Source: Candidatus Jettenia caeni (GTDB lineage Bacteria; Planctomycetota; Brocadiia; Brocadiales; Brocadiaceae). Taken from it: a DNA stretch of 64,000 nt. Below are positions 1,869-62,209 of this stretch, in pieces. How positions within the stretch are numbered: the first letter of the stretch is position 1; the number at the start of each line of letters is the position of its first letter. The stretch is from positions 1,550,401 through 1,614,400 of the forward strand of contig BAFH01000003.1 in assembly GCA_000296795.1 (NCBI GenBank), in the 5' to 3' direction. The notes under the pieces were generated by a model, which worked only from the letters and a program-made list of their open reading frames with translations, did no database searches and was not told the origin of the DNA. Made by a program: the position numbers and the translations under genes.

Positions 1869-2398
1869 GAAGTATTTTTCCTGTATCAATTTTCGTGTTG
1901 CTTTAGGAACTCGAGAAGACAGTTTCGACTGCATTGATGGAACTGCCTAAAAGGGCGTTATCATATCATTGCGAAGGAGAAACAACTGAAGCATCCTAAT
2001 CCCCCTTAGTCCCCCTTTAGAAAAGCTTATCTTTACCTACAAGTCAGAGAGGTAAATTTGAGTAATGCGATAAGACTAAACAGGGTGGCACGGACAAACT
2101 TGTTTGTCCGTGTTTTTCGAGTACACCCGTGGATAGGGAATATACCACACTGACAAACAGAGTTTGTCAGCGCCACCCGGGAATAGGCTTACAGAGAATA
2201 AAAATTTCCAGAGAGATGCCCACGGCGATACATCTCTTCATGGTATTCTAAAGATGTGGGTAAGGATAAGTTTAGAAAAGGGAGAGATGTATGAATGATT
2301 TAGAAAATGGAGAGATACGCAAATATTCACACATTTTCCCCCTTTTCTAAAGGGGGATCAAGGGGGATTATTTTTCCTTAACTTCTGGAGATATACCT
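1869..2398. other. 530-bp gene-free stretch made of dispersed repeats
   Basis: No credible gene is seen. It holds a CCCCTT/AAGGGG palindromic repeat piece near 1995-2026, a fuller copy at about 2336-2370 (CCCCCTTTTCTAAAGGGGG followed by GGATCAAGGGGG) and the GGTGGCACGGACAAAC repeat listed separately. The promoter of the following barrel gene must lie here, but I cannot pick it out among the repeats. Confidence 0.6.
2083..2178. repeat. Dispersed repeat with inverted ends (GGTGGCACGGACAAAC family), copy 1
   Basis: The unit begins GGGTGGCACGGACAAAC and ends GTTTGTCAGCGCCACCC. It is built from two small hairpins (CGGACAAACTTGTTTGTCCG and TGACAAACAGAGTTTGTCA) joined by a conserved spacer (GTGGATAGGGAATATACCACAC). 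Other copies lie at 13897-14021 and 50453-50552, with a half copy at 61463-61494. All are between genes, which suggests a MITE- or REP-like family. Confidence 0.8.
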
Positions 2399-13791: not shown

Positions 13792-14406
13792 TTTTCTCCT
13801 CGTATCGATATATCTTTTTTTGATTTCAAAGGGATGTCATGATTATAGTAAGCTCTTTATAGTATTCAAAGGATGAAACCGTACAGTATTATAATAGGGT
13901 GGCACGGACAAACTTAGTTTGTCCGTGCTTGCTTCAAATGCCAACGTGGATAGGGAATATACCACACTGACAAACGATCCCTGCCTAAGACATACAGGGA
14001 CATGGTTTGTCAGTGCCACCCTTGACTAAACGATAGTTTGATTGTAGAGGAATTTTCATGTTATGTATGCGGTCTTTCGGTAGAGACAAGGCATTGCCTT
14101 GTCTCTGCTAAATCAATGTAAATCCTGTAAATCCTGTCTAAAAATAATTTAAAAATTAACAACTACCATTCCGGCTTCTTTTTGTCTGCAATTATTTCAA
14201 CCCTTTAGGCTTGAAGTACCGTGATTAACAATCGAAACCGAACAGTATACAAAGAGACGCAAGATTTTACGTCTCTCCGTATGGGTTATGTTCTTGATAC
14301 ACGCTGGTATATTCGGTTTTATTCGTGGAATGTGCTATAGTATATGAAAAATAAATGGCTTGGTCAAATAGTATGGAATTTTTTCTTTCAATCAGGAATA
14401 CCAATT
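13792..14406. other. 615-bp repeat-filled intergenic region
   Basis: No supported gene. It contains the second GGTGGCACGGACAAAC repeat (13897-14021), preceded by AGTATTCAAAGGATGAAACCG, a sequence also found before the half copy near 61425. A perfect palindrome AGAGACAAGGCA-T-TGCCTTGTCTCT is at 14082-14106 and an AGACGCAAGATTTTACGTCTC hairpin at about 14250-14270. Confidence 0.65.
13897..14021. repeat. Dispersed repeat with inverted ends (GGTGGCACGGACAAAC family), copy 2
   Basis: It begins GGGTGGCACGGACAAAC and ends GTTTGTCAGTGCCACCC with the spacer GTGGATAGGGAATATACCACAC. It carries about 28 extra bases (ATCCCTGCCTAAGACATACA...) inside the right hairpin relative to the other copies. Confidence 0.8.
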
Positions 14407-42338: not shown

Positions 42339-42412
42339 TGGGGAATAGTGTAACGGTAGCACAAATGACTCTGGATCATTTAGTCTAGGTTCGAATCCTA
42401 GTTCCCCAGCCA
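42339..42412 (+). tRNA. tRNA-Gln (anticodon CUG) with encoded CCA
   Basis: The acceptor TGGGGAA pairs with TTCCCCA. The anticodon stem is AATGA/TCATT around the loop CTCTGGA, giving anticodon CUG (reads CAG, Gln). The T-arm is CTAGG-TTCGAAT-CCTAG. G73 and CCA at 42410-42412 are encoded. An integrase remnant begins 16 bases after its end, the usual position of an attachment site in a tRNA 3' end. Confidence 0.93.
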
Positions 42413-42427
42413 ATAAAATCAATGGTT

Positions 42428-42945
42428 TCAGCCATTCGATATATCCTTGTTTTCCCCGACTGTAGCCAAATTGTAGCCACTTTTTTCTGAAATTTGCATC
42501 CCGTCCCTCAGACTTTCAATGTTATGGTGTGTATATCTTTGAGTCATGCTAATGTTATAATGACCTAATAGCATTGAGATTTTACCTATGTCATATCCTC
42601 TTTGTGCTAACCTCGTCGCAAAGGTATGTCTCAAATCATGAAAGTGAAGGTCTTGAATACCTGCTTTTCCCATAGCAGTATTTAAAGCCCTAATAAGATT
42701 ATGGCAATCAATTTTAGTCATTGCGATACTCAAAAATACAAGGTCATTTTTAAGATTTCTTACTTTTGCCTTTTCCGTTAAAATAGTAAGAGCAGTTTCA
42801 AGAAGCGGAATTGTTCTTGGCTTTCCGCTCTTTGTCTCCTGAATTATAATGGTTTTGTTGAACAAATTTACCCTACCCCATTGAAGCGAAAGCAGTTCGT
42901 CTTGACGTAAACCAGTATGCAAATCAAAAATAATTATGTCCCTTC
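42428..42945 (-). pseudogene. Tyrosine recombinase (integrase), C-terminal part
   Basis: Reads FDLHTGLRQDELLSLQWGRV (first catalytic Arg), then ...HFHDLRHTFATRLAQRG (His-X2-Arg) and LGHYNISMTQRYTHH with the Tyr nucleophile in TQRYTH, so the catalytic half of an XerD/phage-type integrase is intact. The N-terminal half is missing: to the right the frame runs into reverse transcriptase sequence at about 42945. Its 3' end lies beside tRNA-Gln, which marks an old integrative element. Confidence 0.85.
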
Positions 42946-43968
42946 TTTCATGGCGTCTACTACATGGCTCTTTGCCTCGTTTAGCGTGAGTCCCAGTTTG
43001 TCCAGCACCCGCTTCGTTATCGCCATTGGCTGTTCTGTTCCTTGCCTGCACAGTATGATAAAGTCGTCGGCAAAGCGTACTATTCGGGCTCCGAGTTTCT
43101 TCTCCAGTTGATGTCTCTCCCATATCCTGTCCAAGAGGTGCAGGTAGAGATTGGCTAGTAACGGTGAGATTACTCCTCCTTGCGGTGTGCCTTTTCAGTT
43201 TCCTTTGCCTCCGCCGATGTTCTTTTGTTTTCCGTCTCTGCCTTTTTCTATGACCGGAGCCTTGAGCCACGTCTTTATCAAGTGCAGTATTTCACTGTCA
43301 CTGATGCGCTCTGCTACCACAGCCACAAGCTTGGCATGGGGAATAGTGTCAAAGTATTTGGATAAGTCGGTACCTATGACTTCAGTATATCCCCTGTTGA
43401 GGGTATATGCTACGTCATCTACGGCATCGTGGGCCGATCTCTTCGGCCTGAACCCGTATGAACATTCGCAGAAGTCGGCTTCAAAAATGGGCTCTATGAC
43501 CAGTTTTACAGCCATCTGCGCTACCCTATCACGGATGGTGGGAATGCCCAACGGGCGTTCCGTTCCATCCGTCTTGGGTGTCATTACTCGTTTTACAGGG
43601 CTTGCTTGATAGGTCTTACTCCTGAGTGCTTCTTGCAGTTCCGCCAGAAAGGCGGATACCCCTTCTCTCTCCTCGATGGCTTCAAAGGTTACACCGTCTA
43701 TCCCGGCGCTCCCTTTGTTGACACGGACAAGGGTGTAGGCATGACTGAGGATGTCTGCCCGGAATACCTTGTCATAGAGGGCGTAGAAGCGGTAGGTTGG
43801 TTCTTGCTTGGCCTTTCGGTATAGCTTCCTCTGAAGTATCCTGATCTTTTCCGGGGTTGTTAGCATTTCTGCAATCTCCCTTTTCCTCTCCTCTTCGGTT
43901 GCATGAACAAAGCAGGGTTCCTTCCCTCGAACTGGGTTGTGTTGTCCCTTGTCCTCAAACGGTACCAT
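42934..43968 (-). pseudogene. Group II intron reverse transcriptase/maturase, broken
   Basis: The reverse transcriptase domains are recognisable: VNKGSAGIDGVTFE, RPLGIPTIRDRVAQMAVKLVIEPIFE, YGFRPKRSAHDAVDDV, then TPQGGVISPLLANLYLH and ARIVRFADDFIILC (the YADD-like active site is FADD). An in-frame TGA (43195-43197) interrupts it just before KGTPQGG. The C-terminal maturase (X) and DNA-binding parts are missing; after NEAKSHVVDA the sequence joins the integrase. Upstream of the ATG, about 360 bases to 44330 look like the 5' RNA part of the intron (AAAGTCCCGTCC, GTCGGAGGGG). Dead as a mobile unit. Confidence 0.87.
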
Positions 43969-44330
43969 AAACCCCTCCGACTCCCTCTACAGCCCGCTGT
44001 GGTTTCGTTTCCTTATACAAAGCGGTTTATGCCCCTCAAGCATTACTGCATAGGGTCTCCAGCACTGGTCTGTTTATCTTCCCCTGCATACCGCCCCTGC
44101 TACCCCGGAAGATATTGCAGTTTCCTTCCCGTTGCCTGAGTCTGCAATCTTCGGCCTTCCCCACGTGTCCACGGGGTCGGCATCTTCGATTTGTATTGAC
44201 GAGGCTACTTGTAGGTTCGCTTGCGCTGCGGCCTGCGGCTTTGCCAATTGGGAACTTACGACCCCTGATTGCTCAGGCACCGCTCCCTTGAACTACCGGG
44301 GTGAACGGATAATTCCCCGGACGGGACTTT
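43969..44330 (-). other. Probable 5' RNA part of the broken group II intron
   Basis: GC-rich, structured-looking sequence directly upstream of the reverse transcriptase start, much richer in GC than the flanking DNA. I cannot place the exact 5' end: no GTGYG start is visible. Domain V at the other end was lost with the maturase. Confidence 0.5.
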
Positions 44331-44666
44331 AACCCGTAAGAATAAACAGATGTTACTGCGTACGGACATTATATATAATTGTTGATTTTATTTTAGATTT
44401 GACGTGTCCGAAATCGCTCTACAATAGTTCTAAAAGTACCAGTCATATCCTCCCAACGTTTAACCTAACCTACACAACTAAAAACGAGGATATTGGTATT
44501 GTTCAATGACTGTGAGCCTGTAAACAAAACCTCGTTTTACTATCAAAAGTACCATCTAAAACCTTCCCAAATTCTTCAACCGCTCTTGATTCATTCGTTA
44601 ATATATGGTACTATAAAACCACTATGAAATTTGAAGATTTTTATAGAGATCTACGGAGATTGAAAA
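44331..44666. other. 336-bp gap before the HTH gene
   Basis: AT-rich. A tiny reading frame (MKFEDFYRDLRRLKNEG, about 44624-44677) overlaps the start of the next gene and could be a leader peptide or the leftover of a partner toxin gene. Nothing else recognised. Confidence 0.4.
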
Positions 44667-61462: not shown

Positions 61463-61494
61463 GGGTGGCACGGACAAACTTGTTTGTCCGTGCT
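61463..61494. repeat. Half copy of the GGTGGCACGGACAAAC repeat
   Basis: Only the first hairpin (CGGACAAACTTGTTTGTCCG) is present. It is preceded by AGTATTCAAGGGATGAAACC, also found before copy 2, which extends the family unit leftward. Confidence 0.75.
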
Positions 61495-61612
61495 CATGGA
61501 ATCAAACCACGGTTCATTTTATAGTGATCAATGATTGAAACCAGACAGCATATGGCGAAGACGAGGTTTTGTAAACCACATGCTCTACGGTATATCGATT
61601 AATCTTTACCAG

Positions 61613-61637
61613 AGAGACAGGTTTGAAACCTGTCTCT
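61613..61637. terminator. Perfect 25-base palindrome at the intron insertion site
   Basis: AGAGACAGGTTT, G, AAACCTGTCTCT. It is of the same type as 14082-14106. The group II intron starts one base after it, at 61639. Confidence 0.75.
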
Positions 61638-61638
61638 A

Positions 61639-62209
61639 GTGCGCCTGAAAGTGCACAATGCCAAAAGGGTGAAAGTCTCTTTCAGGGAAAACGCTTTCCG
61701 TCCTGTAACCGACCGTAACTGCGACACCGTGAGGTGTGGTGGGGAGCAATGGGTGGTTGGAGACGGAATGGCAGGAAGGCAAGGTGCATGAATCAGGGAT
61801 ACCTGAGAGAGTGGGAGTGACACTCTCTCAGGAGTCAGAACCTCCATAAGAGCGAGGAAGCACCGTAATGGGTGTGGAGCAAAGGAAGGTAGGAAGGTGG
61901 AGGTATGAAGTGGATAAGACAGGAAGTCAAAACCAATGTCAGTGGCAGAAATGCCGAAGCAAATTGGAGAAATCCAGAGAAAGAGGATTGAACCTGGCTT
62001 AGAGCGGAGTACCTGTTGACAGTCGGTAGAAGACGAATGGTGAGGAGCGCTGTCATTATTGTTAGGACTGGGTTGTTCACATATACCACACCTCAGATAC
62101 TAATTGGTCGATCCCGATGGGGAAACCACTGACTGGAGAGCCGTATGCGGGAGACCCGCCTGTACGGTTCGGAGGGAGGGGAGGCGAAAGCCTTCCCTAC
62201 CCCTATCAC
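61639..62209 (+). ncRNA. ORF-less group II intron (about 570 nt)
   Basis: The 5' end is GTGCGCCTGAAAG, a group II start. Domain V is at 62138-62170: GAGCCGTA pairs with TACGGTTC around a GCGGG-AGA-CCCGC stem. Domain VI follows (GGGAGGGGAGGCGAAAGCCT, then TCCCTACCCC) with a bulged A, ending near 62209 (CCTATCAC). No reverse transcriptase reading frame is inside. It sits right after a perfect hairpin, an insertion habit known for class C introns. It could move only with help from a maturase made elsewhere. Confidence 0.85.

Follow-up and report, generated by a model that had tools for sequence, protein, structure and literature searches.

A short element in the genome of the anammox bacterium Candidatus Jettenia caeni lies directly behind a perfect hairpin and bears the ends of a group II intron, which raises the question of what it is, why it sits beside a palindrome and whether it can still move. 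We analyzed it within a 64,000-nucleotide stretch (the window; G000:C3:1550401-1614400) of a 4.09-Mb genome that is 99.95% complete. A preliminary description, made from the sequence alone, had proposed an ORF-less group II intron beside a hairpin, starting with GTGCGCC and showing domains V and VI in about 570 bases without a reading frame, and each of these points was borne out. The covariance-model search that it had suggested gave a match to Rfam RF00029 over domains V-VI at 62136-62206 (+), with 56.2 bits (E 2.4e-8 in the 64-kb search). The 5′ end was placed at 61639, and the hallmarks of group II introns are present, namely a GUGYG 5′ end, domain V, domain VI with a bulged A, and an AY 3′ end. 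The longest sense ORFs overlapping 61613-62209 encode 50 and 63 aa, and the intron is ORF-less because none is longer. Its measured length is 568 nt; the 3′ end, previously drawn at 62209, was corrected to 62206, where CCCCTAT is followed by C. Both boundaries were set by analogy with the filled and empty sites of a relative, L068, and copies 85% and 81% identical over nearly the whole length were found in G013 and G017. We thus regard window 61639-62206 as a confirmed ORF-less group II intron. Its features are listed in Table 1, in which the domain limits inside the intron are an interpretation of the consensus fold. Elsewhere in the window, a second group II intron remnant occupies 42930-44360 (−) (RF02005, 74 bits); its reverse transcriptase carries in-frame TGA and TAA codons and runs into a tyrosine-integrase-like fragment that adjoins a tRNA at 42339-42409.

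Table 1. Parts of the intron and its exons in the window, and miniature relatives at other loci (positions refer to the window unless a locus is named).
Feature	Position	Strand	Basis
5′ exon: palindrome, stem arms 61613-61623 and 61627-61637, ending CTA	61609..61638	+	sequence; perfect 11-bp stem
Last 5′ exon bases GTCTCTA, where IBS1 would lie	within 61609..61638	+	
ORF-less group II intron, 568 nt, GTGCGCC...CCCCTAT	61639..62206	+	RF00029; analogy with L068; relatives
Domains I-III, limits approximate	61639..62016	+	consensus structure; limits are a reading of the fold
Retained closing stem CCGACC / GGTTGG in domains I-III	61709-61714 / 61755-61760	+	consensus helix 5
Deletion scar: one merged copy of direct repeat GGGGAGCAAtGGGTGG	61741..61756	+	alignments with relatives
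Domain IV of the ORF-less lineage (approximate): long hairpin replacing the maturase gene	62017..62110	+	consensus helices 20-23
Domains V and VI, with the catalytic AGC, a bulged A (62199) and the 3′ end CTAT	62136..62206	+	RF00029 alignment; helices 25-26
First 3′ exon base C, completing palindrome end CTA^C	62207..62207	+	empty site CTAC; C after CCCCTAT in most copies
Mini introns, ~190 nt	L067:1656-1848; L068:1464-1649; L069:1711-1900; L076:2470-2637		one common internal junction
Second mini type, without the domain V 5′ strand	L070:1746-1960; L072:1359-2177		one common junction, two G001 loci

The hairpin at 61613-61637, the window copy's AGAGACAGG palindrome, has a perfect 11-bp stem and a 3-nt loop. 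Thirteen such perfect stems occur in the window, compared with none in three block shuffles. The suggestion that other copies would stand beside the same hairpin held as a family-wide tendency: using a stem score of at least 7 and an end within 4 nt of the intron, a hairpin directly 5′ of the intron was detected for 32 of 48 5′-complete copies versus 2 of 180 upstream control positions. The 5′ exon is conserved as A, T and C at positions −1, −2 and −3 over 49 copies, its last three bases reading CTA in most copies. One pattern for the underlying GTAG...CTAC palindromes matches 56 places in the J. caeni genome (G000), while the reversed control pattern matches none. Another dispersed palindrome, GCACGGACAAACTTGTTTGTCCGTGC, is present in three near-identical copies at window 2089-2112, 13902-13928 and 61468-61493. 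In G013, the flanks of the introns at L079, L085, L083 and L086 show apparent MITE-like inverted ends (TTTAGTTTTTTGAAAA...TTTTTCAAAAAACTAAA) around GTAGAGGCAATTCATGAATTGCCTCTAC palindromes.

The L068 locus fixes the insertion site to the base. The filled site in G001 reads GTAGGGCGAAGATACTCTTCGCCCTA, then the element, then CAAATACT, and the empty locus is uninterrupted in G000 (GCCCTACAAATATT) and in G002 (GCCCTACCAGTATT). The family therefore inserts between the A and C of the terminal CTAC, without target duplication, and the intron itself ends in CTAT. A GTAG...CTAC repeat is thus interrupted within its final CTAC, and IBS1 lies inside the 3′ arm of the palindrome. The window copy has no exact empty-site partner; its own spot in the same-genus genome G002 is free of the intron and carries a different hairpin. 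That observation, together with a G022 orthologue of the L085 locus lacking both repeat and intron, would fit a hairpin repeat and an intron that moved together as one DNA element. Such composite movement is nonetheless very improbable: the empty L068 palindromes in G000 and G002 led us to reject it for that locus, and for G013 it is weak, the upstream repeat halves of L079, L084 and L085 differing far more than their introns.

The intron belongs to a family with matches in 26 of 59 related genomes. Full copies measure ~1.85 kb and encode a 449-aa maturase, ORF-less copies measure ~730 nt, and shorter derivatives also exist. Where the ORF-less form has its domain IV hairpin, ORF-bearing relatives have ~1.2 kb of sequence. 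The same 5′ end and hairpins recur in more distant relatives from Lentisphaera, Phycisphaerae, Peribacteria and others, and a plasmid collection yielded only four distant records, in which the domain V part alone matched. We found no report of this family in anammox bacteria in the open-access literature, which is weak evidence. At L089, a c-di-GMP-I riboswitch (L089:2508-2624, 57 bits) begins ~50 nt downstream of an ORF-less intron.

The position behind a hairpin had been taken as the terminator-targeting habit of class C introns. The GTAG...CTAC palindromes lack a T-run and therefore are not typical intrinsic terminators, nor were they called as terminators; with IBS1 also inside the stem, terminator targeting is unsupported, and in its simple form we reject it. 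The maturase bears on class more favorably. It scores 399 bits against TIGR04416 (cut-off 300) and contains RVT_1 and GIIM domains, it gave no endonuclease match, and among solved structures, in a PDB holding few intron classes, the nearest are group IIC reverse transcriptases (220 and 204 bits), followed by other intron types at 152 and 134 bits. Class C or a neighbor is consequently possible but, from the sequences compared, unproven. A canonical group IIC family aimed at intrinsic terminators, for which the endonuclease-free maturase, its IIC-like relatives and the insertion directly after a stem-loop would all speak, is doubtful given that the targets are dispersed palindromes of another kind and that introns with IEP types g6, U1 and U2 insert after terminators too (PMC8919778).

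In full copies, EBS1 is the loop GAGCCTGC-(TAGGG)-AATGGC (loop A), which covaries with IBS1 in the 5′ exon: 76 of 90 possible pairs form across 18 distinct combinations, against a permutation mean of 56 ± 3.5, with 0 of 20000 permutations as high. Examples are CTGGGGG/CCCCCAG (L156), CGCTA/TAGCG (L145) and CTCTG/TAGAG (L090). Loop B (CTCCATAGGAGCG) was rejected as EBS1, being nearly constant while IBS1 varies. The window copy is missing ~150 nt of domain I, EBS1 included, between 16-bp direct repeats (GGGGAGCAACGGG(A/T)GG), and the deletion leaves the stem CCGACC/GGTTGG closed. The EBS1-bearing part is likewise absent from L079, L084, L085, L087, L050, L031 and L141. Full domain I is ancestral, since the distant Lentisphaera, Phycisphaerae and Peribacteria relatives have it. 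By this comparison the window copy is an internal deletion derivative: of the six-domain fold it lacks a complete, EBS1-carrying domain I and has the rest, and we file it as a group II intron deletion derivative because its full relatives have the part in question.

The fold, proposed earlier as a check, is supported by covariation across ten ORF-less relatives. A consensus derived from their alignment contains 163 pairs, with 96.3% of cells standard. The window copy folds through domains I-IV and keeps 150 of 157 consensus pairs, with domain I incomplete as described. Both sides have changed in 31 consensus pairs, compared with 14.2 ± 2.6 in shuffles, a control uncorrected for relatedness, and 3-12 in slid controls, which correct for it, although the structure was derived from the same sequences. 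In helix 23 of the domain IV hairpin, both sides have changed in 10 of 16 pairs. These double changes point to the ORF-less form being a long-established lineage whose RNA structure is under selection, and not the product of a recent deletion. Against the Rfam D1-D4 models, which are unlabelled by class, full relatives match D1D4-3, and the window copy matches only D1D4-4, below the cut-off.

A maturase with matching RNA, the other partner that the preliminary description had proposed to look for, did not turn up in the host genome: the best maturase-like gene in G000 shows 44% identity and is interrupted by TGA and TAA stops, and the others are 28-41% identical. No intact close maturase was found in G001, G002, G010, G013 or G020; G029 has one.

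Given the identity, boundaries, fold, target family, EBS1 covariation and deletion established above, and the search of the host genome for a cognate maturase, the window copy is very probably a decayed, non-autonomous copy of a Brocadiaceae (anammox) group II intron family. Full members of the family would splice and join their own maturase/reverse transcriptase. Through EBS1-IBS1 pairing they would recognize the 3′ arm of a GTAG...CTAC palindrome, presumably when the arm is single-stranded or extruded in a cruciform, and they would then reverse-splice into the terminal CTAC between its A and C. A sub-lineage without an ORF, which has its own conserved domain IV hairpin, may long have travelled with maturases supplied in trans. 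Recombination between the 16-bp direct repeats would later have removed the EBS1-bearing part of domain I from the window copy or its parent. Without EBS1, and with no cognate maturase found in the genome, the copy is most likely immobile now, a relic of a non-autonomous lineage, although a distant IEP may mobilize it. It lies between genes and so need not splice. Several points sit awkwardly with this reading. A relic that died long ago would be expected to be less well preserved than this copy (150/157 pairs, intact domain V), the window copy's missing empty-site partner counts against the reading, and the EBS1-less form at several G013 sites with one junction argues against simple immobility.

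The EBS1-less short form occurs in six genomes of four genera (G000, G010, G013, G017, G019 and G026). In G013, three 5′ junctions with different flanks have a common, rarer deletion junction (GGGAGG-TTGG; other copies have GGGTGG-TTGG), and two of these copies, L084 and L085, agree at every position over 124 nt but diverge in their upstream flanks. The tree groups most short copies in a single clade (support 0.91). These patterns, and an EBS1-less mini intron at a site empty in both sister species, would suit a living non-autonomous element that receives maturases and EBS1/domain I parts in trans from full introns; in yeast bI1, a deleted EBS1 stem-loop was rescued in trans (reviewed in PMC4424553). 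We rate this possibility as rather unlikely. One full copy, L102, branches within the short clade, and one short copy, L141, falls outside it, which means that the deletion has in part arisen more than once; the same pattern is expected from gene conversion; most genomes are drafts or metagenome-assembled, and in the G013 draft the short copies break contigs; and mobility itself is read from sequence.

The mini form consists of the 5′ 85 nt joined to domains V-VI, likewise without EBS1, and occurs at four unrelated loci in two species, three in G001 and one, truncated, in G002. No direct repeat is evident at its junction. Of the mini sites, one, L068, was compared across species, and it is empty in both sister species (G000 and G002). 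Because the junction is common to two species while that site is empty, the simplest order would be that the mini formed, the species split, and the mini then inserted. Alternatively, a mini copy may have converted a full intron that arrived later, or the mini may have passed from one species to the other. Other derivatives have lost catalytic parts. The second mini type has done so at two G001 loci, L072 carrying an extra insert, and L087:1773-2322 and L102:2006-2722, from different genera, have a common 15-nt deletion of the catalytic domain V 5′ strand at short GGAGA repeats.

A competing account, to which we give about an even chance, is that full introns came first and were later cut down by direct-repeat recombination and gene conversion, the short and mini forms never having been mobile. 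The 16-bp direct repeats flanking the deleted part, the decayed longer copies in G001 (L071 and L073) and the fact that the short form arose independently at least twice agree with it. Its difficulties lie with the mini form, whose junction lacks a direct repeat yet is common to four unrelated loci; conversion would have to have taken place at several loci by way of arms of only 85 and 100 nt. Either trans-mobilization or gene conversion could explain the spread of the stripped forms. That anammox MITE-like derivatives (550-570-nt EBS1-less and ~190-nt mini forms) still retrohome into palindromes, with domain I/EBS1 and maturase acting in trans, seems unlikely. A search of the open-access literature, weak evidence in itself, returned nothing on dispersal of miniature, EBS1-less or 190-nt group II introns.

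Together, these findings show nothing unusual in the kind of element that the window copy represents, a decayed non-autonomous group II intron, although its family is interesting. Related genomes hold a graded series of autonomous, ORF-less, EBS1-less and 190-nt mini forms, including a mini-bearing site that is empty in both sister species, and the palindromes constitute a target class other than terminators and attC. If EBS1-less forms do move in trans, they would offer a natural parallel to the proposed origin of the spliceosome, in which a group II ribozyme was split into pieces that act in trans. Among the closest precedents are the ORF-less TeI3 introns of Thermosynechococcus elongatus, which have proliferated with helper IEPs, are mobilized by driver IEPs and, as here, form an ORF-less lineage from an ORF-bearing intron with a common remodelled domain IV (PMC2882425). 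The TeI3 introns tested have good EBS/IBS pairings and lie beside active IEPs, whereas the window copy has its EBS1 deleted, no cognate IEP found and palindrome targets. Group IIC introns resemble the family in their endonuclease-free maturase and insertion beside stem-loops (PMC4424553; PMC8919778); they differ in that the targets here are GTAG...CTAC palindromes without a T-run and with IBS1 inside the 3′ arm. A group II intron of P. putida lies at REPs in 2 of 9 copies (PMC1525189). The target palindromes are themselves like GTAG-tagged REP palindromes, reported also from Planctomycetes, in being short, dispersed, intergenic and starting with GTAG; the REP tag is unpaired (PMC3733652), whereas here GTAG pairs with CTAC at the base of the stem.
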